64,000 bases of DNA from Emticicia oligotrophica DSM 17448 (lineage in GTDB: Bacteria; Bacteroidota; Bacteroidia; Cytophagales; Spirosomataceae): contig NC_018748.1 in assembly GCF_000263195.1 (NCBI RefSeq), forward strand, positions 3,100,001-3,164,000, read 5' to 3'. Made by a program: the position numbers and the translations under genes. Under the pieces are notes generated by a model that saw only the letters and a list, made by a program, of their open reading frames with translations, had not been told where the DNA came from and searched no databases. This document shows, one piece after another, positions 3,205 to 15,457 of this stretch; the stretch's first letter is position 1, and each line of letters begins with the position of its first letter.

Positions 3205-5049
3205 TTAGAAAACCTCAAAAATCATCGTAGATTTTGGCGAAATTGTTAGGCCATTTTTCAAGGTTTGGATTTCGTTGTTCAGAATATTTTTGGCGGAAGT
3301 TTTATTCTGCAAGATTTCATCAAAACGCTTGGTTTCGAGCTTTATTTCTTTTTCATTTTTATTCATCACAACCATCACCGTTTTCTTATTATCGTATCTA
3401 AAATACACATAAATTCCATCAAAAGGTGCAAAATGTAGTGTTTTTCCATGGGCAATTACTGAATTATTTTTCCGCCAATTTAGCAGTTCCTTCAAATAGG
3501 CTTTAGTACTTTTTTGTGCTTCTGTAAGGCCTTTTTCGGTGAAAACATTTACACTGTCTTCTTTCCAACCACCTGGCAAATCGGAACGAATCAGTCCATC
3601 TACTTTATGATGACCAGTGTTTTGCATCAAAACCTCTGTGCCATAATAAATTTGAGGTATTCCACGTGTAGTAAGCAAGTAGCCCAATGCCATTTTAGTA
3701 AGGTCAACATCTTCGTTGAGTTGCGTAAAAATGCGGTCCATATCGTGGTTATCGCCCATAATTAGAATATTCGAAGGGTCGGCATACACAAAATCATTTG
3801 CCAATGCTTCATACAAAACAACCAAGCCCTTTCCCCAAGTTTCTTTTTCTTTGAGGGCATTGACGAGGGCTTCTTGTAGTGGAAAATCCATGATGCTCGT
3901 TAGGCAACCGTTGTAGCCATCGGCATTTTTTTTGCCTCTTTGCCAGTACGAAGTAATGAGCGGGTTGACGCTCCATTCTTCGCCAACAATGCTAAAATTA
4001 GGATATTCGTTCATGATGGCACAACTCCAGTTTTTCAAGAAAGTCTTATCCGAATAGCCATAAGTATCTTGTCTGACTCCGCCCAGTTGAAGGGTTTCAA
4101 TCCACCATATCGTGTTTTGTATCAGATAGTTAGCCATGTAAGGGTTTTCACCGTTCATGTCGGGCATCATTCTATCAAACCAACCTTTTTTCATGAACTC
4201 TTTGTCATAATCTGAAGCATAAAGGTCTTGATTGACAGTGCGTCGATGATTGGTAGAGGTTTTGGTGTCAGGATAATTAAGCCAGTTTTTAAATGGCAAA
4301 TCATCTGTCCACCAGTAGCCGTAGCCAGTATGATTCAATACTTCATCAAAAATCAACTTAATACCTTTTTGGCGAGCTTTGGTCGAAAGTTCCTTATAAT
4401 CATCAAGCGTGCCGTATCTGGGGTCAACTTTGTAATGGTTTGTAATGGCATAGCCATGATAAGAATAGCCTGACATATTATTTTCAAGTACAGGCGTTGG
4501 CCAAATGGCCGTAAAACCCATATTGGCAATGTAATCAAGGCTGTTTATCATTCCTCTAATATCGCCGCCGTGGCGGCCACCATCAAAACCACGATTGATT
4601 TTGGCTTCTTTCATGCCTGCAACTACATCATTTGAGTAATCACCATTGACAAAGCGGTCGGGCGTGATAAGGTAAATGACATCAGAAGAATTAAACCCAC
4701 GCATCTGGGCTGATGCTTGTTGCTTAGGTAGCAGACTATAATTGTACGTATAAACGGTTTTACCTGCTTTCTTGAAATTAATAGTAAAACTACCCGCTTT
4801 GGTGGTTTTGGCAATCACTAAATCAAGGAAAAGATAGTTTTTACTATCAGCTTTATTGACTTTTTTGATGCTTACCCCTGCATAGTTGATAGAGGGTTGA
4901 GTTTCGGAAATATTCTCGCCATGAATCAATAATTGTAGGTTTGGATTCTTCAAGCCTACCCACCAATTCAGTGGCTCAACGTGCTGAATTTGAGCATTTG
5001 CCACGAAATGAAAGCAGCAGAGATATATAAGGAAGTAAATTTTTTTCAT
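3205..5049 (-). CDS. GH13 alpha-amylase family enzyme (cyclomaltodextrinase/SusA type), exported
   Basis: A 614-residue protein with an N-terminal signal peptide (residues 1-19, cut near VANA-Q). It has an N-terminal cyclomaltodextrinase-type beta domain (about 22-110), a GH13 TIM barrel (about 120-530) and a C-terminal beta domain. The GH13 motifs are intact: DEVLNH (235-240), nucleophile D328 in GGVRQDTY, acid/base E357 in VGEEW and the NHD motif ending at D436. It should hydrolyse alpha-1,4-glucans (maltodextrins, pullulan or cyclodextrins) in the periplasm or at the cell surface, like Bacteroides SusA. Its ATG overlaps the stop of the upstream esterase gene by 4 bases (ATGA), so translation is coupled. 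It is the last gene of the carbohydrate locus. Confidence 0.93.
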   Translation of the reverse strand: MKKIYFLIYLCCFHFVANAQIQHVEPLNWWVGLKNPNLQLLIHGENISETQPSINYAGVSIKKVNKADSKNYLFLDLVIAKTTKAGSFTINFKKAGKTVYTYNYSLLPKQQASAQMRGFNSSDVIYLITPDRFVNGDYSNDVVAGMKEAKINRGFDGGRHGGDIRGMINSLDYIANMGFTAIWPTPVLENNMSGYSYHGYAITNHYKVDPRYGTLDDYKELSTKARQKGIKLIFDEVLNHTGYGYWWTDDLPFKNWLNYPDTKTSTNHRRTVNQDLYASDYDKEFMKKGWFDRMMPDMNGENPYMANYLIQNTIWWIETLQLGGVRQDTYGYSDKTFLKNWSCAIMNEYPNFSIVGEEWSVNPLITSYWQRGKKNADGYNGCLTSIMDFPLQEALVNALKEKETWGKGLVVLYEALANDFVYADPSNILIMGDNHDMDRIFTQLNEDVDLTKMALGYLLTTRGIPQIYYGTEVLMQNTGHHKVDGLIRSDLPGGWKEDSVNVFTEKGLTEAQKSTKAYLKELLNWRKNNSVIAHGKTLHFAPFDGIYVYFRYDNKKTVMVVMNKNEKEIKLETKRFDEILQNKTSAKNILNNEIQTLKNGLTISPKSTMIFEVF

Positions 5050-5969
5050 TTGTTTAATAAGAATTTTAGTGGAATATCAAGACGTTGATTCCAAGATTTT
5101 TCTGAATGGTCGGCACCAATAAATTCTTTTGTAAGCCAATTTTTATCAGAAAATCCTTTTGATTTCATAACAATATCGACCTTTTCTTGGAAAGGCTTGT
5201 AAAGTGCATCTAAGGTTTCTGTACCATAATCGAAATATATTTTGTGATTTTTTGGTGAAGGTAAATGTATTTGTAAGTATTGCAAAAATGTTGCTGGAAT
5301 AGGGTTATTTTCTACCGTAAAAGTGCCAACCCAGTGCGTTGATAAACAAGCAGCACCCGCAAATACTTTGGGGTATTCACAAATGGCATACATCGAAATC
5401 AATCCACCCATGCTTGAGCCACCAATAAATGTATGTTTTTGATCGGTGAAAACAGCGTATTTTTTATCAATGAAAGGTTTGAGTTCTTCTACAATGAATT
5501 TTAAGTAATTATCAGAATTGATTTTACCTGCGAAAAGTGCTTGGTTTTTTCCACGCGTAGCTTTATAAATCGAGTCTTGTTGTGCCTGACTCAACATTTC
5601 AAATGGTTTTTGTGGGAAATAATCAGAGTGTCGATTGGCTGCGATATTCCAAATACCTACTACGATGCAGTTTTGAATGGCTTTTTCATCCAGTAATTTT
5701 GTCATTATATCATCTACATCCCAAGCTTGTTTATTCCAAGTGCTTGCGGCATCAAATAGCATTTGACCATCGTGCATATAAAGCACCGAAAATTTGCTTT
5801 TGCCATCGTAGTTTTTGGGTAGCCAAACATCTACATTTCGGGCAGCAACATATTTCGATTGAAAATTAGTTTGTCTTTCTAATCGACCACTCGATACCAC
5901 CTGTGCATACGTGTTGAGTGCGAAAAAACAAAACAGAAGAATATTAATGATAGCATTCATTTTTATCAT
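5046..5969 (-). CDS. Exported alpha/beta hydrolase, esterase family (PF00756 type)
   Basis: A 307-residue protein with a signal peptide (residues 1-22, ending NTYA-Q). It belongs to the putative esterase (esterase D/feruloyl-esterase-like) alpha/beta hydrolases. The nucleophile elbow GGSSMGG places the catalytic serine at 186, and the likely catalytic histidine is in ADHSEKSW near the C-terminus. Related proteins sit beside glycoside hydrolases in many Bacteroidota loci and may remove acyl decorations from glycans or act as predicted hydrolases on esters; the substrate is unknown here. It overlaps the GH13 gene by 4 bases. A strong terminator separates it from the SusE/F-like gene upstream, so the esterase-amylase pair may have separate expression. 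Two nearby ATGs (5969, 5960) are possible starts. Confidence 0.85.
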   Translation of the reverse strand: MIKMNAIINILLFCFFALNTYAQVVSSGRLERQTNFQSKYVAARNVDVWLPKNYDGKSKFSVLYMHDGQMLFDAASTWNKQAWDVDDIMTKLLDEKAIQNCIVVGIWNIAANRHSDYFPQKPFEMLSQAQQDSIYKATRGKNQALFAGKINSDNYLKFIVEELKPFIDKKYAVFTDQKHTFIGGSSMGGLISMYAICEYPKVFAGAACLSTHWVGTFTVENNPIPATFLQYLQIHLPSPKNHKIYFDYGTETLDALYKPFQEKVDIVMKSKGFSDKNWLTKEFIGADHSEKSWNQRLDIPLKFLLNK

Positions 5970-6089: not shown

Positions 6090-7409
6090 TTATTTCACCT
6101 TTGTAGCTTTGTAAGTTGGCTTGGCAGGGTCTTTAAGGTCTAAAACAAAGTTCCACGTACCAGCTTTTACTCCAAAGTTTTTACCATTGGCCAATAGACC
6201 TCCACTGGCGGCAATTGGGTCAGGCTCCGTACTACCCGTTGAACCATAATTCACGCCCCAATCATCGTTTAATCTGAATTTGATTTGACCGTCTTTCAGT
6301 ACAACATTATTTAAATACCAAGTTTCAGTGCTGAGGTCATAGCTGAATTTTTGGTCAGGTTTTTCGCCCCACCCCGTAGCAGTAGCATCGCCCACAATTC
6401 CCCACGGAGCATATTTTGTAATCGTATATTTCATTTTTTTGAAATCTACCGTAATCAAATACGTTCCTTTCTTTACAGCAATATTATCTCCACCTTCTTT
6501 CAATACTCCGTTCGAACCACCATAATTCACACCCCAGTCGTTGTCTTTACGAATCTTGAACTCACCATCAATAAGTGTCACAATGCCAGTCCAAAGGTCA
6601 ACGCTTGGGTCGTAGTTGAGCGGTGCATCAGGCGTTGCCCCCCAGTTATTGTAGGCACTTCCTACAATTCCCCAAGAATATTTCTCAACCTTATAAGTAA
6701 GTGCAACTGGGTTAAAGGTGATTTTATAAGTTCCCGCTTTTACAGCAATATTATCACCATCTTTTTTCAAAACACCATTTGTTCCACCATAATTTACTGC
6801 CCAGTTGTTGTTTTCACGAATCTTGATTTCACCGTCTTTCAACGTTACATACGCTACAAATACATTTGGTACTTCAGTTTTGTAGAATGGCATATCAGGG
6901 CCATCCCAACCGTTGGTTGTGGCACTGCCCACTACACCCCAAGTTGAGCTAAGGTCTAATTTATCAAGATAAGGCGTGGCCGTCAGGCTACTTACTGTCG
7001 AACTCAACACCGTAGAAGCTCCCATTGTAGCTGTTATTTTGATGTCGATGTCGGCAGGTGTGCCAGGAGCAAGACCAAGACCCAATAAAATGCCGTTTAA
7101 CTCAGCAGTTGTAAAGGTTTTCTTTAGGTCAGAACCAGCCGTAATGGCTGATGCTTTTGAGAAATTTCCACCTTTTTTATCAATCAAAATGGTGTTGGTT
7201 GCTGCCGCACTAAAACCATAATCGGCTGCCCATGAGATAGTTAGAGCTTCTTTGGTGGCATTGTCTTTATTCAATACAACGCTTTTGCTCGAAAGCGTAA
7301 CCACAGGAGCTGCCCCTGTGCTTAAAATTGCTCGTTCTTCTTCTTTTTCGCAGCCCCACGCAAACAAAATCGCCAGCCCGAAAAGAAATAATTTATTGAA
7401 TGTTTTCAT
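6090..7409 (-). CDS. SusE/SusF-like outer-membrane glycan-binding lipoprotein with three tandem modules
   Basis: A 439-residue lipoprotein. The signal peptide ends in a lipobox with Cys20, followed by EKEEE, which fits the Bacteroidota surface-export rule (K plus acidic residues after the Cys). Residues about 35-150 form the SusE N-terminal domain. Three repeats of about 90 residues then each begin WG(I/V)VG and contain an (L/I)xDGxxKxRxxxxWxVNYG core, followed in the first two by a GGDN/DGDNIAVKxGTY-type strand. This is the SusE/F starch-binding module arrangement, which binds polysaccharide at the cell surface and delivers it to SusC/D. The ligand may be an alpha-glucan, but related modules occur in other loci. 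It follows susD by 92 bases. Confidence 0.9.
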   Translation of the reverse strand: MKTFNKLFLFGLAILFAWGCEKEEERAILSTGAAPVVTLSSKSVVLNKDNATKEALTISWAADYGFSAAATNTILIDKKGGNFSKASAITAGSDLKKTFTTAELNGILLGLGLAPGTPADIDIKITATMGASTVLSSTVSSLTATPYLDKLDLSSTWGVVGSATTNGWDGPDMPFYKTEVPNVFVAYVTLKDGEIKIRENNNWAVNYGGTNGVLKKDGDNIAVKAGTYKITFNPVALTYKVEKYSWGIVGSAYNNWGATPDAPLNYDPSVDLWTGIVTLIDGEFKIRKDNDWGVNYGGSNGVLKEGGDNIAVKKGTYLITVDFKKMKYTITKYAPWGIVGDATATGWGEKPDQKFSYDLSTETWYLNNVVLKDGQIKFRLNDDWGVNYGSTGSTEPDPIAASGGLLANGKNFGVKAGTWNFVLDLKDPAKPTYKATKVK

Positions 7410-7501: not shown

Positions 7502-9046
7502 TTAATATCCTGTATTTTGTTTCAAAGTAGGGTTTGCAATAAGGTCAGAAGCCGCCAACGGGAATACCGAACGGAAAGTTTCTACGTCTTTTCCTGCTTT
7601 GATTCCACCTTTCCAAGCCCAATTATAGCCAGTTGTAAACTTCCCAAATCTAACTAAGTCAGTGCGGCGATGTGCTTCCCAGTATAATTCACGACCACGC
7701 TCGGCCAAAAGATTGTCGAGTGTCAGTGAAGAAAGGTTGGTAGCACCTGCACGTTTGCGAAGTGAGTTTACTAAGCTAAGAGCCAAAGTACCATCGCCAC
7801 TACCGCCACGAGTAACGGCTTCGGCGTAAATTAAATAAGCATCGGCTAATCTAAATAACGGGAAATCGGTGTCTGTATGCGTTAGGTTTTTGCCTGGTTT
7901 TCCATCTCTTTTTACGTTTTTCCATTTCGTAACGGCATAACCATTCGAGAAAGTACCCACTTCATCAATTTCTAATTCTTGTCCGTTTGTGTAGAACATT
8001 CCACGTTTATCGGCTTTGTCATTGAATAAAGACACAAATTCTTTGGTTGTACGGAAGCCGCTCCAACCACCGTCAACGCCAAATTCAGCGGCATTCATGC
8101 TTCCACCTATCGAAGCGTGAATGATGGTTGTAGTTCCACCCCAAGTTTGGGTTTCGTTTCCATCATAGTTGATAGCAAAAATGTTTTCAGTAGAAAGGTG
8201 GTTGTCAGCTAAGAAATTGTGCTGATAATTGTTTTCGAGCGTATAACCCGCATCAATTACTTTTTTGGCGTAAAGGGCTGCTTCGCTGTATTTTTTCTGA
8301 CCTGTATAAACCTCGGCATTCAAATATAATTTAGCTAAAACCATCCAAGCGGCTGCTTTATCGGCTCTTCCATACTCGTTTTTGCGTGCATCTGGAAGTT
8401 CAGTTTCAAGAGCTTTCAATTCGGTTTCTAAGTAATTGAATAATTCTTGACGAGATGCCTGTTTTGGCAAATCAGAACCTACTTTATCGTTTTCGGTTAC
8501 GAGTGGAATACTACCAAAAAGGTCGATTCCATGCGAATAAACCAATGCACGAATAAAACGTGCTTCGGCACGGTAGTTTTTAATATCTTGTGAATTGGCA
8601 ATGCCACGGCTGCTTAATTTTGCGTCAGTAGTTTCACGCAAAAACTCATTTGCTACGGCAGCTTGGAATAAGATTCTTGAATAAAAAGCTGATGTCCAAG
8701 CATTTGAGGCTGTCCAAGACATTTTGTGCAAATCAGGTAAACCTGGGTCGCCCCAACCTACGATTGCTTCATCGGTCGTAAATTCTTGCAAGTACCAATA
8801 TACACGCATGTAGCCCTGAAAACCACCATCGAAGTTTTTCAAATCCACGTCATCGTCTTTTGGTTTGATACCCGAAACCGCCAAACCTGCGTATAATTTT
8901 GCCAAAATTTCTTTGTAATTATTGGCATCTTGATAAACCAATTCTGAAACTTGCCCCACATAAGGCTTGGTATCTAAGTCTTTGCACGACCCCATCACGA
9001 AAATCAGTGCTAAAACGGCTATTAATTTTTTAGATATATTTTTCAT
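7502..9046 (-). CDS. SusD/RagB family nutrient-binding outer-membrane lipoprotein
   Basis: A 514-residue lipoprotein with signal peptide and lipobox VMGSC (Cys21), followed by the SusD N-terminal TPR-like region and the SusD/RagB C-terminal domain. Family hallmarks are FIRALVYSHGIDLFGSIPLVTE (start of the SusD core), YLNAEVYTGQ, and the C-terminal FPLFRLADAYLIYAEA and RELYWEAHRRTDLVRFGKF segments. It caps the SusC barrel and captures oligosaccharide for import. The gene is separated from susC by 13 bases and is clearly in the same operon. Confidence 0.96.
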   Translation of the reverse strand: MKNISKKLIAVLALIFVMGSCKDLDTKPYVGQVSELVYQDANNYKEILAKLYAGLAVSGIKPKDDDVDLKNFDGGFQGYMRVYWYLQEFTTDEAIVGWGDPGLPDLHKMSWTASNAWTSAFYSRILFQAAVANEFLRETTDAKLSSRGIANSQDIKNYRAEARFIRALVYSHGIDLFGSIPLVTENDKVGSDLPKQASRQELFNYLETELKALETELPDARKNEYGRADKAAAWMVLAKLYLNAEVYTGQKKYSEAALYAKKVIDAGYTLENNYQHNFLADNHLSTENIFAINYDGNETQTWGGTTTIIHASIGGSMNAAEFGVDGGWSGFRTTKEFVSLFNDKADKRGMFYTNGQELEIDEVGTFSNGYAVTKWKNVKRDGKPGKNLTHTDTDFPLFRLADAYLIYAEAVTRGGSGDGTLALSLVNSLRKRAGATNLSSLTLDNLLAERGRELYWEAHRRTDLVRFGKFTTGYNWAWKGGIKAGKDVETFRSVFPLAASDLIANPTLKQNTGY

Positions 9047-9059
9047 TTGAAATTTAGAA

Positions 9060-12050
9060 TTAGAAGTTGATGTTTAAGCCTACCGAATAAGTGCGTGGTC
9101 TTGGATAGATTTGACGGTCGATACCATCGGCAATCTCTGGGTCTAAACCTTTGTATTTCGTGATTACGAATACATTTTGCACCACAAACGATAATTGAGC
9201 TTGGATTTTCTTCGCTCTAAACAAATCGCTCAAATTATAACCAACGTTCAAGTTGTCCATGCGTAAGAATGAAGCGTTTTGTACGTAATAATCTGAAAGA
9301 ATGGTTTGGTCAGTGCGAGTTTTGAAATTTGTTTCCAAAACATTGGCCGAAACGTTATTGATGAAGTTGCCCGCACCCGTAATGTTTTGGTAAGTTGCCA
9401 TGCTTGAATAAATATTATTCAAGGCGTAGTTGCCGATGTTTGAACGCATTACAAAGCCTAAACTTGCTTTTTTGTATGACATCTGCGAGCTAAAACCTAA
9501 GAAATATTTAGGAACAGCCGATTGATAACGATAACGGTCTAATTCAGTGATTTTTCCATCACCATTGAGGTCAGCAAATAAACCTTCGATTGGTTTTCCT
9601 GCTTCGTCATATACTTGTTTATAGACAAAGAATGTATTTGGCGTGTAGCCGGTTGAATGTACTTGTGCGTAGTTTCCTACACCACCACTGATGCCACCTA
9701 CCAAAACACCCACGTAAGTCGGGTTATCAACTTTGGTCAAAGCCGTGATTTTTCTTTCGTTATAAGTAAAGTTTCCACTAATATCCCAATTGAAGTTTTT
9801 GTTCATGATTGGCGTGTAGTTTATCACCACTTCAAGACCTTTGTTTTCGAGTGTTCCAACGTTGGTTGTTACTTTATTACTGAAGTTTGAGCCCGCCGCT
9901 ACGTCGATTTCGTTAATCAAATCGGTAGTTTTCTTTTGGTAAACATCAATGCTACCAGAAATACGTGCTTTTTTCAATCCAAAATCTAATCCTAAGTTAG
10001 TAGAAGCCGTTTGTTCCCATTTGATATTTGGGTCGTAGGCATTCGGACGAAGTAGGTCGTAGTATCTATCACCAAACTGATATTTCAAGCCTTGTCCTTT
10101 CGTGTAAGCGTTCAAGTAAGGGTAATCACCCGTTGATAAATCTTGTTGACCCGTAAGTCCCCAACCAAAACGTAGTTTTAAATCAGAGAAAATCTCATCG
10201 TTTTTGAATTCTTTGTTGAGTTTCCATGCTAAAGCTACCGACGGGAATGTTCCCCAACGATTTTCTGGAGCAAAACGAGACGACCCATCACGACGAACGG
10301 TTACGGTAGCTAAGTATTTATCATTCAAAGCATAATTCAAACGACCAAAAAACGATAATAGAGCGTAGTCAGTTTTGAAGTACGAGTAAATTGGCACTAC
10401 ACCGCTGTTACCGTAAGTAGTTCCGTTTTCGTTTTCTCTCACAAATCCTTGGTTTTCAGCACCCGCCATGATATTAATCGACTGACCGTTCAAACCTTTT
10501 ACATAGTTTAGGTAAAACTGGTTGGTGAAATTATTACGAGTTTGGGTATAATAGCCAACCGAACCTTGATTAGTAAATGAAGTAGCCGAAAGTAAGTTTG
10601 ATTCTGTTTGGTCGCCTCTGGTATTTGAGCGGTCGAAACCAATATTCCAAACGGCACGAAGGTCTGGGAAGAAATGGAATTTGTAATCAGCTTGGATATT
10701 TCCAATCATACGATTAAGCGTTCCGACATTGCTTTTTAGGTTCAATAAAGCCAGTGGATTAATTGGTGCTAAACCAGCCAAATCACCATTTTGTGCCAAC
10801 CATTGGAAATAACCACCGAATTTGTTTTCGGCATAGACATTTTGAGTTGGGTCGAAACCAATGGCACTTCCAATAGCTCCTTCATCAGCAAAATTGCTTT
10901 TGGTTGATGAATATTTGAAGTTAATATCAAGTTTTAAATGCGATTTGAAGAACGTAGGCGTAAGACCAACCGATGTTGAAGTTCTATCCATCGACGAAGT
11001 TTTCAAAATACCATTTTGTTTGGTATAACCCACTGATACACGATAAGGCATTGTTTTCAAATTTCCTGTTACACTCAAATTATTATCGCTACTCAAAGCT
11101 GTACGGAAAATTTGGTCTTGCCAGTTGGTATTGGCATTTCCCAAAAGTTTTTGCTGTGTGGCAGTTCCGTAAGTTTTCACGGCTGTTCTGAACTCATCGG
11201 CTGTAAGTACATCTACGTTATTCACTCTTGAAGCTGACGAAAACAATGTACTAAAAGCCACATTAAGCTTATCTTTTTTGCTTCCTTTTTTGGTAGTGAT
11301 GATGATTACACCATTGGCCGCACGTGAACCATAAATGGCTGCTGCTGAGGCATCTTTCAAGATATTAAACGATTCAATATCATTTGGATTAATAAAACTC
11401 AAAGGGTTAGCAGCACCCGAAACATTGCTATTATCGAGCGGAATACCATCAATGACAATAAGTGGGTCATTGCTGGCACTTAACGACGAACCTCCACGAA
11501 TACGGATACGGCTACCCGAACCTGGAGCTCCACCGTTTGAGGTGATTTGCACACCCGCCAATTTACCCGAAACCAATTGCTCAGGCGTAGCGATGTTTCC
11601 TTTTACGAAGTCAGTTGAAGTGATTGAAGTAATTGAACCTGTTAAATCTTGTTTCTTTTGTGTACCGTAACCTACCACTACCACTTCTTGCAAGATTTTG
11701 TTATCATCAACCAATTTTACATCAATCGTTGAGCGATTACCCACCGCAATTTCTTGAGTTGCTTTACCAATAAAACTGAAAACTAATGTTGCATTGGCTG
11801 GTGCTGCCACTTGAAAGCTACCGCTGGCATCGGTTTGTGTTCCTGTACTTGTTCCTTTGACCGAAACCGATACACCCAGCATAGGAGATCCATCGTTTTG
11901 GTCAGTAACTTTTCCGCTTACTGTTTTTTGTGCAAAAGTCACGCTCGTGAGCATTACCGCAAGCAATACCGAAACGATACTCTTGCTGTAAGCCATGCGT
12001 TGGACTCCCGCCGCAGTTAAGACTTTCCAATTGTTAAAGTATTTGTTCAT
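9060..12050 (-). CDS. SusC/RagA family TonB-linked outer-membrane receptor
   Basis: A 996-residue TonB-dependent transporter. It has an N-terminal signal peptide with an atypical 18-residue leader before MAYSKSIVSVLL, a carboxypeptidase-regulatory-like domain (about 42-115), a TonB-box-like VVVGYGTQKK, the plug domain (GGSSLSASNDPLIVIDGIPL, DASAAAIYGSRAANGVIIITTK) and a 22-strand barrel ending in a C-terminal aromatic (NINF). It imports oligosaccharide across the outer membrane using TonB energy together with SusD. There is no second TonB box and no anti-sigma FecR-type extension. It is the first gene of susC-susD-susE and is preceded by a 113-base inverted-repeat element. Confidence 0.96.
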   Translation of the reverse strand: MNKYFNNWKVLTAAGVQRMAYSKSIVSVLLAVMLTSVTFAQKTVSGKVTDQNDGSPMLGVSVSVKGTSTGTQTDASGSFQVAAPANATLVFSFIGKATQEIAVGNRSTIDVKLVDDNKILQEVVVVGYGTQKKQDLTGSITSITSTDFVKGNIATPEQLVSGKLAGVQITSNGGAPGSGSRIRIRGGSSLSASNDPLIVIDGIPLDNSNVSGAANPLSFINPNDIESFNILKDASAAAIYGSRAANGVIIITTKKGSKKDKLNVAFSTLFSSASRVNNVDVLTADEFRTAVKTYGTATQQKLLGNANTNWQDQIFRTALSSDNNLSVTGNLKTMPYRVSVGYTKQNGILKTSSMDRTSTSVGLTPTFFKSHLKLDINFKYSSTKSNFADEGAIGSAIGFDPTQNVYAENKFGGYFQWLAQNGDLAGLAPINPLALLNLKSNVGTLNRMIGNIQADYKFHFFPDLRAVWNIGFDRSNTRGDQTESNLLSATSFTNQGSVGYYTQTRNNFTNQFYLNYVKGLNGQSINIMAGAENQGFVRENENGTTYGNSGVVPIYSYFKTDYALLSFFGRLNYALNDKYLATVTVRRDGSSRFAPENRWGTFPSVALAWKLNKEFKNDEIFSDLKLRFGWGLTGQQDLSTGDYPYLNAYTKGQGLKYQFGDRYYDLLRPNAYDPNIKWEQTASTNLGLDFGLKKARISGSIDVYQKKTTDLINEIDVAAGSNFSNKVTTNVGTLENKGLEVVINYTPIMNKNFNWDISGNFTYNERKITALTKVDNPTYVGVLVGGISGGVGNYAQVHSTGYTPNTFFVYKQVYDEAGKPIEGLFADLNGDGKITELDRYRYQSAVPKYFLGFSSQMSYKKASLGFVMRSNIGNYALNNIYSSMATYQNITGAGNFINNVSANVLETNFKTRTDQTILSDYYVQNASFLRMDNLNVGYNLSDLFRAKKIQAQLSFVVQNVFVITKYKGLDPEIADGIDRQIYPRPRTYSVGLNINF

Positions 12051-12235: not shown

Positions 12236-13351
12236 TTATTTATAAAGCTTTTGATTGAAAAAATCGAAAACTGGCAATGCCTCGTTACCTCTCTCAGCAT
12301 CAAAGAAAATGGCATTGTCCCAATGGGAGCCTTTTCCCCAAGCTGTACTACAATTGGTTGAAATCCAAGCAGGTTCCCAATAGATAATTCCTTCTCCACC
12401 ACCTTTCACGACTGCTTTTGTCAGGTCAATCATAAATTTTAGTTGTCCGTCTGGCGTGTAATCATAACCCGCAATTTTTCCTTCACCGTCTAATAAATTA
12501 TTGGCAGCATCAAAGTTTTTTGGCGAGTACGGATAGCCTGTTTCAACAATCATTACTCGTTTTTTGAAATCGGATTTCAGTCTATTTACTTCATTTGTTA
12601 AACCCAAAAGGCTGAATTTTGACCATTTTGGGTAATATGAAAGGCCAATCCAATCGTAGTTGATGATGCCGTTTTTCTTGGCATTTTCAAACCAATTGTA
12701 GGCTTCATCGGGCTGGGCAATGTGCAGCATGGTTTGAATTTTTTGTCCACGTATAGCTGAAATTTTATCAACGGCCTCAATTCCTCTGTTCAGCAATGCA
12801 ACATTCCGTTGCCAGTTGATAGTTTTGGCAGCATCTTTTGTGTATTGCATTACTTCACTATTGATTTCGTTGCCTACTTGCACAAATTCGGGCGTTAGAT
12901 TGGCTGCAGCGAGTTTGTTGAGTACATTAAAAGTGTAGGCATAAACAGTATCTCCCAAGATTTTGGTGTCTTTAATATTCTCCCAAGCTTTCGGAATAGT
13001 TTGATGAGCGGGGTCTGCCCAAGTATCGGAGTAATGAAAATCAAGCAGCACTTGCATATTTTGCTCTTTGGCTCGGCGAATGCTTTTCTTTACGTCTTCA
13101 AAAGTTGAATACTTTGTCCAATCAGGCGAATGCCACAAGCGAACTCTTACTATGTTTGCCCCTTTGTCTTTGAAGAGTTTGTAGGGGTCAACTTTCACCC
13201 CATTGCTTTGGTATGTTCCGCCACAGTCTTCCATTTCATTGACATACGATAAATCTCCACCCAAAAAGAGTGGTTCTTTTTCAATGTCTTTTACTTGGCA
13301 ACAAAAACTCGAAAACAAAAAAGCGATACCTAACAAGTAAGTTTGTTTCAT
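12236..13351 (-). CDS. GH53 arabinogalactan endo-beta-1,4-galactanase, lipoprotein
   Basis: A 371-residue protein with a short signal sequence ending SSFCC (lipid Cys17 or 18), followed by a GH53 barrel. The acid/base Glu is E162 in VQVGNEI and the nucleophile is E270 in MIVETGYPYS. Other family segments are GGDLSYVNEMEDCGG, NIVRVRLWHSPD, VLLDFHYSDTWADP and EGIIYWEPAW. It cleaves beta-1,4-galactan, such as the side chains of pectin or arabinogalactan, probably at the cell surface or in the periplasm. It precedes susC in the same orientation but has its own upstream promoter-like sequence. Combination with a GH13 amylase in the same locus is unusual. Confidence 0.93.
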   Translation of the reverse strand: MKQTYLLGIAFLFSSFCCQVKDIEKEPLFLGGDLSYVNEMEDCGGTYQSNGVKVDPYKLFKDKGANIVRVRLWHSPDWTKYSTFEDVKKSIRRAKEQNMQVLLDFHYSDTWADPAHQTIPKAWENIKDTKILGDTVYAYTFNVLNKLAAANLTPEFVQVGNEINSEVMQYTKDAAKTINWQRNVALLNRGIEAVDKISAIRGQKIQTMLHIAQPDEAYNWFENAKKNGIINYDWIGLSYYPKWSKFSLLGLTNEVNRLKSDFKKRVMIVETGYPYSPKNFDAANNLLDGEGKIAGYDYTPDGQLKFMIDLTKAVVKGGGEGIIYWEPAWISTNCSTAWGKGSHWDNAIFFDAERGNEALPVFDFFNQKLYK

Positions 13352-13408: not shown

Positions 13409-13452
13409 CAAAAGTACAATTGATATAAAGGCGTGTCGCCCCACTTTATAAA
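13409..13452 (-). promoter_or_regulatory. Putative GH53 promoter with activator half-site
   Basis: A good Bacteroidota -7 element TACTTTTG (minus strand, 13409-13416) stands 58 bases before the GH53 start. No TTG is found at the expected -33 position. Instead a CCACTTTATAAA half-site lies 24 bases further upstream (13441-13452), where an activator would be expected to contact polymerase. The same 12 bases recur in the perfect palindrome at 13533-13550. Confidence 0.5.
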
Positions 13453-13532: not shown

Positions 13533-13550
13533 TCCACTTTATAAAGTGGA
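13533..13550. promoter_or_regulatory. Perfect 18-base palindrome, candidate operator
   Basis: TCCACTTTATAAAGTGGA is identical on both strands. It lies 18 bases past the stop of the membrane AraC-type regulator and about 180 bases upstream of GH53. A partial copy (CCACTTTATAAA) is 93 bases away at 13441-13452. A 7-base hairpin terminator is the alternative, but the shared second copy next to the GH53 promoter favours a binding site. Confidence 0.5.
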
Positions 13551-13567: not shown

Positions 13568-15457
13568 TTAATCATTGATTTGTTCAAAAAAATCGCTTGG
13601 AGTTTGGTTTGTAATCTTTTTGAATGAACGATTGAAGGCAGTTTTAGAATTGAACCCTACTTCAAAAGCTAAGCTGAGTAGTGTAAAGTTTTTATAACGT
13701 GGGTCTTCGATACGACGTTTAAACTCTTCGATTCTGTAGGTATTTATCAAATCAAAAAAGTTTTTATCAAAACCATCATTGATAACTTTTGATAAAACAT
13801 GCGGCTGAATCTTGAGTTTTGCGGCAAGGTCGTTGAGCGTTAGTTTTGGGTTTTCATAAGGTTTGTGTTTGTCCATATAAGTTTCCAACTGACTTTTCAA
13901 AACCATGATATTTTCATCGACCACCTCGCTTTTATCGGGAGTAGGAGCATAATTATTGGCCTGATTAATAGGTAATGGATTTTGAAAAAACTCAACTTCT
14001 CGTTGGGGAAGTTTAAATATTTCAGGTTGATGAATGGCAAAATAACCCAAAAAATAAACAATTGTAGAGAATACTAACCAAATTGTATCGATGCTTCGCT
14101 CGGCAATTAGACTATCATTTACTAATCCTTCGTATGAAAATATTGTCCAGATTCCTGTAAATAACCAAAGTGTTAGGCATACAGCCTGAATTGAAAGTAC
14201 AGTGTTGAGGTATTGAAGATTTTGCTCGTATGAATAATTATGGCTATAATCTCTTTTATAGGTTTGAATCATTTTACGGCAGATATTCCAGTAGTAAAAA
14301 TTACTACACCACCCAATCAGCCCCATAATTGCTAAAATGATTTGTAAATCATTGTCTTCATTGACTAATTTTAACCTAAAAACATTAAAATCCATCAAAA
14401 AATAGGGCAAATATACTACCAACTGTATAGCTGGTAAAATGAAATGGAACTGCCATTTTTTTGGTAACTTCTTAGTCTGAAAGAGAAGTTTACTTAAATA
14501 AAAATAAAAAAGAGGGGCATATAAGAATAGTAATAAATTGGGAATTAGTAAAAGTTTAGAATAGGTTTGGGCAAATTCTTTATGGTTCGACATTTCCCTT
14601 AGAAGTACCATGAGAGAAGTCACAGCTATCAATAATACCAACCAACGATTAGCCGCCCGATTGTAATCTTGAATAGTAGGAATGGCGATTATGAGCAAAA
14701 TGCCTTGAAAGGAGGCAAATAGCATTAATAAATCGAAAAGTGAAAAAAAGTTAAAAGCTCCTGAAAAGTCTTCCCAACTTTCGATTTTTATCTGAATTGT
14801 CTTTAAATCTGTCGTATTCGAACGATTAAATACTCGATTTGGGCGAGCTTTTCCACTTTGGCGGCCTTCAACTGATTCCCATGTACCACGAGTAAATTTA
14901 TATTCTAATCGAGCTAAATCGCTGTAAATTATGGTGCGATAAGTACCATCAGCTTGGCGTTTGAGACGATATTTTTCTTCTCCGGGATTCCAATTATTAA
15001 AATTACCAGTGATATAAATATGAGCATCTTTGGGCGTATTCTCTGGTATTTTTTCAATCACCATGACGTATGATGGTTTCGACTCCCAACTTTCAATTTT
15101 TACTTTTATAAATTTAGGATTGGCTTCTGAAGAGGCATCATAAATTCGATTTTGTCTGCTTCGGCCGTCTTTTCCTCCTTCCACAAGCATCCAATTTCCT
15201 TGTGTAAATTTATATTCAAAGTAGGGGATTGAGTCGGGTAATATTATGAAGTAAGAACCATCAATATCTTTCTTCAGGGCATAATTGGGGTCGCCCGGGC
15301 TCCAGTTATTTATCGAACTGGCCATATATAGCTCACCATCAGGTATCAGAAAAGTAGGATACTCCGAAACCACAATTTTAATTTGTGCTTCCGCCCGATT
15401 TCCTAATATTAGAAGAAGAATGGATATTATTGAAATATATAGCTTCATTAAGGTCAA
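13568..15457 (-). CDS. Membrane AraC-family regulator with two periplasmic glycan-binding-like domains and seven TM segments
   Basis: A 629-residue protein. After a signal peptide (1-24), two tandem homologous domains (about 26-125 and 126-229) each carry an NNWxPG motif (N51-W52, N155-W156), a DG(S/T)Y strand, a YKFT(Q/R)GxW strand and end in IESWE; this resembles AMPK/CBM48-type glycogen-binding folds. Seven hydrophobic segments follow (about 236-258, 270-287, 303-322, 337-355, 371-391, 416-441, 457-476). A linker leads to a C-terminal AraC helix-turn-helix domain (about 536-629, with LSLAFEVGFNSKTAFNRSFKK). Topology predicts sensing outside and DNA binding inside. It is encoded immediately upstream of the carbohydrate locus, so it is the likely activator of that locus. 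The sensor assignment is inference from motif resemblance. Confidence 0.85.
   Translation of the reverse strand: MTLMKLYISIISILLLILGNRAEAQIKIVVSEYPTFLIPDGELYMASSINNWSPGDPNYALKKDIDGSYFIILPDSIPYFEYKFTQGNWMLVEGGKDGRSRQNRIYDASSEANPKFIKVKIESWESKPSYVMVIEKIPENTPKDAHIYITGNFNNWNPGEEKYRLKRQADGTYRTIIYSDLARLEYKFTRGTWESVEGRQSGKARPNRVFNRSNTTDLKTIQIKIESWEDFSGAFNFFSLFDLLMLFASFQGILLIIAIPTIQDYNRAANRWLVLLIAVTSLMVLLREMSNHKEFAQTYSKLLLIPNLLLFLYAPLFYFYLSKLLFQTKKLPKKWQFHFILPAIQLVVYLPYFLMDFNVFRLKLVNEDNDLQIILAIMGLIGWCSNFYYWNICRKMIQTYKRDYSHNYSYEQNLQYLNTVLSIQAVCLTLWLFTGIWTIFSYEGLVNDSLIAERSIDTIWLVFSTIVYFLGYFAIHQPEIFKLPQREVEFFQNPLPINQANNYAPTPDKSEVVDENIMVLKSQLETYMDKHKPYENPKLTLNDLAAKLKIQPHVLSKVINDGFDKNFFDLINTYRIEEFKRRIEDPRYKNFTLLSLAFEVGFNSKTAFNRSFKKITNQTPSDFFEQIND

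Follow-up and report, generated by a model that had tools for sequence, protein, structure and literature searches.

The window, a 64,000-nucleotide stretch of Emticicia oligotrophica DSM 17448 (NC_018748.1, positions 3,100,001 to 3,164,000), carries on its minus strand a gene for a putative membrane-bound transcriptional regulator and, next to it, a starch-type locus. The open reading frame of the regulator (minus strand, 13568-15448) encodes a protein of 626 residues if translation starts at an ATG at position 15448 or of 629 residues if it starts at a TTG at position 15457; we prefer the ATG as the start codon. The features of the gene and of the adjacent locus are as follows.

13568..15448, minus strand: regulator gene (signal peptide, two alpha-glucan-type domains, seven transmembrane spans, AraC domain; open reading frame, Pfam, alignment, AlphaFold2)
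15386..15448, minus strand: signal peptide of the regulator, residues 1-21 (N-terminal hydrophobicity and helix 2-17 in the model)
15080..15385, minus strand: ectodomain 1, residues 22-123, with putative ligand residues W49, K80, W86, and N100
14762..15079, minus strand: ectodomain 2, residues 124-229, with putative ligand residues W153, K184, W190, and N204
14030..14740, minus strand: seven transmembrane helices, residues 237-473 (hydrophobicity and AlphaFold2 model)
13574..13909, minus strand: AraC-type DNA-binding domain, residues 514-625 (HTH_18, 47.8 bits; structure matches 6swi, 3lsg, and 3oou)
12236..13351, minus strand: GH53 enzyme, at the head of the predicted target operon (Pfam Glyco_hydro_53, E 3.6e-103)
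9060..12050, minus strand: SusC-type TonB-dependent transporter (NCBIfam TIGR04056, 760 bits)
7502..9046, minus strand: SusD-type lipoprotein (Pfam SusD_RagB; NCBIfam SusD, 384 bits, below the cut-off of 725)
6090..7409, minus strand: SusE-type outer-membrane protein (Pfam SusE)
5046..5969, minus strand: esterase-like protein (Pfam Esterase)
3205..5049, minus strand: GH13 cyclomaltodextrinase/neopullulanase-like enzyme (Pfam Alpha-amylase, Cyc-maltodext_N, Cyc-maltodext_C)

The initial annotation had read this frame as two homologous domains of about 100 residues followed by seven transmembrane spans and an AraC domain, and that reading was borne out by the motifs, by the AlphaFold2 model, and by the HTH_18 match. 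The motifs NNWSPG and YKFTQGNW of the first domain recur as NNWNPG and YKFTRGTW in the second, IESWE is found in addition, and the motif positions are kept across 43 two-domain ectodomains. In the AlphaFold2 model (52 rows; mean pLDDT 84, and 90 for the ectodomain modelled alone) a signal-peptide helix (residues 2-17) is followed by two beta domains (22-227), seven helices (237-259, 264-288, 297-322, 332-351, 366-400, 405-439, and 446-473), a disordered linker (488-511, pLDDT below 50), and the AraC domain (514-625). By our reading of the sequence, the basic loops lie on the cytoplasmic side. An alignment of 34 rows retained the whole architecture at 34-93% identity, with five rows containing the second domain only; this conservation, together with the occurrence of the architecture in many genera, rules out a product of chance.

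Both helix-turn-helix profiles scored above their Pfam cut-offs (HTH_18, 47.8 bits against 33.6; HTH_AraC, 35.3 against 26.6), and such a double match places the domain in the AraC/XylS family. Above curated cut-offs Pfam named only this part of the protein, and NCBIfam named nothing; a match to a T9SS plug protein (20.7 bits, cut-off 100) was set aside. No histidine kinase, receiver, sigma-70, FecR, or other anti-sigma domain was detected by Pfam at E<=0.1, and by its Pfam domains the regulator is neither a hybrid two-component system nor part of an ECF sigma/anti-sigma pair. The absence of kinase and receiver domains supports the earlier proposal that no phosphorelay is involved.

Distribution and genomic neighborhood

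A match to the regulator at 1e-30 was found in 60 of 148 genomes, its own included, when the best eight candidates per genome were scored. From our reading of the table, 13 of these 60 have only 7TM-AraC relatives of about 380 residues, one (G098) has only a lipoprotein, and 46 have the ectodomain architecture, so that the search for a CBM-like domain joined to 7TM and AraC parts that the initial annotation had called for was answered positively. In an even sample of the phylum (395 genomes, best three candidates per genome scored), 29 genomes gave a match at 1e-60, and four of the matches covered an ectodomain. Absences from the genome scans are not certain, since only the best 8, 10, or three candidates per genome were scored. 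NCBI taxonomy places Emticicia in the Leadbetterellaceae (Cytophagales), and the host and 89 other searched genomes were grouped as one family (f1). A homolog with 93% identity is present in Emticicia aquatilis, and further carriers include Runella, Spirosoma, Dyadobacter, Hymenobacter, Chryseolinea, Zobellia, Maribacter, Cellulophaga, and Reichenbachiella, among others.

The number of ectodomains per regulator in the collection is one, two, or three. Proteins of about 370-400 residues that consist of the 7TM and AraC parts without an ectodomain (L143, L146-L148, L150, L151, L153, and L156) come from Bacteroidota and from metagenome-assembled genomes labelled Melioribacteraceae, Ignavibacteriaceae, Calditrichia, Thermoanaerobaculia, and Gammaproteobacteria, the last being the source of the relative in L153. 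At L137 (9970-11443, start approximate) a gene of the family is split into two reading frames, one for the ectodomain and transmembrane parts and one for the transmembrane and AraC parts.

A GH13 gene or a SusC and SusD pair lies within 8 kb of 45 of 63 regulators with an ectodomain, as compared to none of nine without one; because L137, which is among the nine, is a split gene, the clean control is none of eight. These counts leave out eight of 80 loci (L139-L142, L144, L152, L154, and L157), at which no transmembrane-domain match reached the threshold, and the loci of one genus are not independent of each other. The remaining 18 of the 63 loci, some of them on short contigs, have neither neighbor. 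GH13 was found near 35 of the 63 regulators and GH53 near 7, the GH13 count being based on similarity to the enzyme of the window and hence missing other GH13 enzymes. Indeed, two genes directly upstream of regulators that had been missed in this way are amylases by Pfam, and among 59 downstream neighbors scanned by Pfam (of 92 selected) 21 contained Alpha-amylase and six SusG_C. A close homolog of the SusD of the window (E<=1e-100, best 10 candidates per genome scored) occurs in 39 of the 46 genomes with the regulator and in 10 of the 102 others (Fisher p 2.6e-19, phylogeny ignored); some of this co-occurrence reflects common descent, the regulator and SusCD being linked.

GH53 directly precedes susC of a starch-type SusCDE operon not only in the window but also at L094, L102, L107, L060, L061, and L161, an arrangement that spans several genera and lies behind the regulator or a predicted operator. 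Two sampled GH53 loci without a GH13 gene of the window type carry another alpha-amylase, recognized by Pfam at L102 and by 70% identity to the L102 protein at L094.

The ectodomain and its candidate ligand

A profile built from the 43 ectodomains matched BoGH13ASus, an amylase (E 9e-4), and gave a weak match (E 0.3) to the glycogen-binding domain of AMPK-beta, with the NNW and GxW motifs in register. When ectodomains were scanned singly at E<=0.1, 36 of the 43 matched AMPK1_CBM (best 6.2e-7), 27 matched X25, 21 CBM53, and nine CBM_48, whereas the ectodomain of the window regulator itself scored 16.3 bits against AMPK1_CBM, below the cut-off of 26.8. Matches to the Pfam family Chibby (15 of 43, best 6e-6) were taken as spurious.

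In AMPK-beta1, residues W100, K126, W133, and N150 are critical for contact with sugar (PMC4032982). Counterparts of these four, assigned by motif order rather than from superposed coordinates, were present in the first domain in 43, 41, 43, and 34 of the 43 sequences, respectively, and in the second domain in 43, 42, 42, and 41. Thus, by conserved ligand-contact residues (34-43 of the 43 sequences) both domains conform to the CBM48/CBM20/AMPK-type modules.

The structural comparison was less clear-cut. A Foldseek search with the ectodomain listed cyclodextrin glucanotransferases (CGTases), the CBM20 of STBD1 with maltotetraose (TMt 0.58 and 0.64), CBM41, and branching enzymes; the first six ranks were unrelated proteins, among them a TIE protein, a leucine-rich repeat protein, a pilin, and a protease, and most superpositions of the two domains, including those on CGTases, were poor (rmsd 9-22 A), with only STBD1 CBM20 giving a fair fit (4.5 A). 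The resemblance to CBM48, CBM20, and AMPK-beta folds for which the initial annotation had proposed a structural check is therefore upheld by the presence of STBD1, CBM41, and CGTases and compromised by the leading ranks and the superpositions. Its broader claim of a glycan-type ectodomain draws firmer support from the AMPK1_CBM matches, the BoGH13ASus match, and the conservation of the W, K, W, and N residues. We conclude that the predicted ectodomains resemble alpha-glucan-binding modules of the AMPK-beta, CBM20, and CBM48 kind; they differ from these in being tandem, periplasmic, and fused to a receptor, the likeness residing in profile, fold, and the four contact residues.

Domains of the same type, as detected with our own domain profile at loci with a close SusCD, are also fused to GH13 enzymes (L206, L207, and L212) and to esterases (L209-L211 and L218). 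In the host genome an esterase-like protein (L004, 676-1767) has one N-terminal copy of the domain, as read from its translation, and on that reading its assignment as a T9SS plug protein was rejected. A 555-residue lipoprotein (L077, 9332-10999) has about five copies of a glucan-binding-type domain; it is homologous over two repeats to the ectodomain of the regulator and passes the cut-offs of both AMPK1_CBM and CBM_20.

The ectodomains could instead serve only to concentrate glycan locally or to bind SusC, SusD, or another protein, with a pocket in the seven-helix part sensing the true signal. Relatives of about 380 residues do keep the 7TM-AraC core without an ectodomain, and the one at L220 adjoins a SusCDE locus, so that the core presumably senses something by itself. 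We nevertheless think this alternative unlikely, given that none of the nine ectodomain-less loci of the collection lies near SusCD or GH13, as against 45 of 63 with an ectodomain, and that both domains conserve the putative ligand residues.

A candidate operator

Three elements were recognized behind the stop codon of the regulator gene.

13534..13549, minus strand: site A, palindrome CCACTTTATAAAGTGG (similar palindrome upstream of site B elsewhere)
13435..13447, minus strand: site B, predicted operator AAAGTGGGGCGAC (only match to AAAGTGGRRCGAY in the host genome; conserved across genera)
13409..13416, minus strand: -7 promoter element TACTTTTG, 30 bp from the AAGTGG of site B (spacing)

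The conserved element AAAGTGGRRCGAC, located between the regulator stop codon and the next operon, is a probable operator. The consensus of the -7 element in Bacteroidota is TAnnTTTG, and the AAGTGG of the conserved element begins 30 (sometimes 31) bp ahead of this sequence. In the 5.2-Mb host genome AAAGTGGRRCGAY had a single match (reversed control, 0), and the looser pattern AAGTGGNNCG-N20/21-TANNTTTG had two, the second within an open reading frame. Among the gaps behind the regulator (51 loci and the window, 52 in all), AARTGGNNCG was present in 28, of which 19 also had a -7 element at 30 or 31 bp; nine thus had site B without a -7 element at that spacing, and 24 of the 52 had no site B. 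A palindrome of the form CCAYYTT...MAARYGG occurs 86-105 bp upstream of 14 of 30 sites B (background, 0.0016 per 125 bp) and is similar in sequence across genera. Site A may be a second operator or, since runs of T follow the palindrome in several genomes, part of the terminator of the regulator gene.

The operator motif was first spotted by eye and then counted in those same loci; more independent are a whole-genome scan, loci in trans, a regulator-less control, and the susC promoters of flavobacteria. The looser pattern gave 38 matches in 33 of the 148 genomes (reversed control, 21). Of these, 26 were intergenic with GH53, susC, or GH13 as the next gene, and the other 12 comprised 10 within open reading frames and two intergenic ones. 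All 26 promoter-placed matches were in genomes with the regulator (25 of 46 genomes, as compared to 0 of 102 others); 21 lay 0.1-5 kb from the regulator gene and five on another contig or 52 kb away. In one genome (G055) the SusC and SusD at the match were only 34% and 29% identical to those of the window. Another genome (G038) showed no SusCD or GH13 match beside its regulator, and its only two operator matches lie on another contig, about 128 bp ahead of the starts of GH13 and susC, respectively; as judged from these positions, the operator would there act in trans relative to the regulator gene.

Six flavobacterial loci have GH13 directly after the regulator; a generalized operator pattern, TATAA-N2-T-N-RR-N-CGA, stands before GH13 at each of them and also before susC at four. 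Across the 80 loci (2.9 Mb, both strands counted) this pattern fell between genes 14 times and within open reading frames five times, and in 13 of the 14 intergenic cases susC, GH13, or GH53 began 52-116 bp downstream. The strict operator-promoter was absent from 18 of the 39 genomes with both the regulator and a close SusD. No site was found before susC at six close SusCD loci whose genomes have the regulator elsewhere (L215-L220), from which it follows that some close SusCD loci are under other control.

Site B sits where a -33 element would be, and no other -33 element was noticed there (by eye, uncounted). Because site B stands in the place of that element, we prefer activation. A repressor bound at site B, blocking the promoter until released by glycan binding, would be compatible with the abutment of site B on the promoter; we judge it quite unlikely, as the position in place of a -33 element suits an activator-dependent promoter, SusR is an activator (PMC3878776), and AraC-type factors often activate catabolic genes (PMC2386152).

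The promoter site might, on the other hand, belong to another regulator of the locus, the 7TM-AraC gene being a neighbor with a different job: the pairing of site B with the AraC domain is deduced from sequence, and most neighboring genes are unannotated. That we regard as very improbable. A Pfam scan of ten flanking genes showed no transcription regulator among them (two were amylases), and no site was present before susC at nine informative SusCD loci in genomes without a 7TM-AraC gene, a tenth such locus (L213) having only 20 bases before susC. Site B is thus best taken as the probable operator of the 7TM-AraC regulator, and the initial claim that this protein controls the adjacent locus gains support from synteny (45 of 63 loci) and from the conserved operator-promoter before GH53, susC, or GH13.

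Proposed mechanism and comparison with known systems

Starch or a related alpha-glucan, rather than galactan, is likely to be the signal, since GH53 lies near only 7 of 63 regulators. That beta-1,4-galactan is sensed, as the position of GH53 at the head of the operon here and in several genera might suggest, is scarcely credible with GH13 near 35 regulators, another alpha-amylase at the two GH53 loci without the window-type GH13 (L102 and L094), and an ectodomain that groups with alpha-glucan modules.

We therefore consider it probable that the protein is a membrane-located one-component receptor and regulator serving a starch/malto-oligosaccharide locus and that it activates transcription through site B. 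Malto-oligosaccharides imported by SusC and SusD would bind the tandem periplasmic domains, and the resulting change would pass through the seven-helix bundle, without a phosphorelay, to the AraC domain. That domain, tethered to the inner membrane throughout, would occupy site B, a short way upstream of the -7 element and where a -33 element would otherwise stand, and recruit RNA polymerase to the GH53-susC-susD-susE operon and, in other genera, to GH13 genes as well. The 7TM-AraC regulator would so play the role that SusR has in Bacteroides. Somewhat more tentatively, we lean toward the wider view that this is a receptor of GPCR-like topology carrying its own transcription factor, that it stands in for SusR in the host family and in several lineages of Bacteroidota, and that it is the first member with a predicted ligand and operator in a wide 7TM-AraC family of varying sensors (none, one, two, or three ectodomains).

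Many starch-type loci of marine Flavobacteriaceae, of Hymenobacter, and of the family centred on Emticicia and Spirosoma are thus given a likely regulator, ligand class, and operator. As both ligand and operator are testable, the protein also offers a simple case for how a seven-helix receptor could drive DNA binding directly.

Similar SusCD operons are paired with different regulators: the 7TM-AraC receptor, ECF sigma/FecR pairs (L205 and L220), or SusR (L215). Ahead of the nearest SusCD locus without the regulator (L205, 8339-13800, SusD 72% identical) lie genes for an ECF sigma factor and FecR; the SusC of this locus is extended to 1114 residues with a weak STN match, and no 7TM-AraC regulator was found in its genome. 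At L220 (5412-7115) an operon close to that of the window lies behind an ECF sigma and a FecR gene, the genome (G072) having a 7TM-AraC regulator elsewhere, and a 375-residue ectodomain-less relative (13624-14751) adjoins the SusE gene, the only such case seen at a SusCDE locus. The sigma/FecR pairs of L205 and L220 are a regulator swap. At L215 (5991-7655) a SusR (NF058541, 599 bits, cut-off 480) adjoins SusC, and its genome (G100) has a 7TM-AraC regulator elsewhere, next to GH13.

Among known receptors, those of the 7TMR-DISM class combine seven transmembrane spans with an extracellular domain that may bind carbohydrate; no 7TMR-DISM family of Pfam, 7TMR-DISM_7TM included, matched the regulator at E<=0.1. 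Foldseek matches of the 7TM part to GPCRs and rhodopsins, among the rows listed (E 0.005-0.06, TMt 0.22-0.57), were too weak for homology. RsgI anti-sigma factors have a CBM as sensor and a single transmembrane span. They act through a sigma factor and proteolysis, in which they differ from the window regulator; like it, those of Clostridium thermocellum sense polysaccharide substrates through the membrane (PMC4711584, PMC12203970). With the hybrid two-component systems of Bacteroidota the regulator shares periplasmic glycan sensing, an AraC output, and linkage to polysaccharide utilization loci (PMC3878776), but it lacks their kinase and receiver domains.

The initial annotation had contrasted the regulator with SusR. 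The contrast holds in that the regulator lies outside the SusR family: NF058541 gave no match to it at E<=0.1, whereas the SusR of G100 scores 599 bits, and a scan of the host genome with it at E<=0.001 was likewise empty. It does not hold as to mode of sensing, for SusR too has been described as membrane-located, with its sensor in the periplasm and its DNA-binding domain in the cytoplasm (PMC3878776). SusR exceeds its cut-off in eight of the 148 genomes, five of which also have a 7TM-AraC regulator. The likeness to SusR (BT3705 of Bacteroides thetaiotaomicron) extends to the starch SusCD locus and to the wide spacing of two predicted sites: the SusR motifs are predicted as pairs of direct repeats separated by 67 or 77 bp (PMC3878776), and sites A and B here are 86-105 bp apart. 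The window regulator differs in its AraC-type DNA-binding part (that of SusR has, in the excerpted text of PMC3878776, no significant similarity to known families), in its sensor, in its seven transmembrane spans, and in the form of the site, site A being palindromic rather than a direct repeat.

Finally, the suggestion that no family of this architecture had been described stands in part. A search of open-licence PMC articles found no description of the architecture itself, but a 2008 report describes AraC regulators with six to seven transmembrane spans that lie next to polysaccharide genes (PMC2386152). These are the membrane-bound SDE 2491, 2495, 2928, and 3858 of Saccharophagus degradans, which are encoded next to cellulases and were hypothesized to detect extracellular polysaccharides (PMC2386152). 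By description alone they resemble the window regulator in AraC domain, span number, and polysaccharide-degradation neighbors; they differ in their cellulose/beta-glucan context, and the excerpted text of that report mentions no alpha-glucan ectodomain (PMC2386152). Given these proteins and the hypothesis attached to them, the general idea is already in print; new here are an ectodomain of alpha-glucan type, the link to starch-type loci, and the predicted operator.
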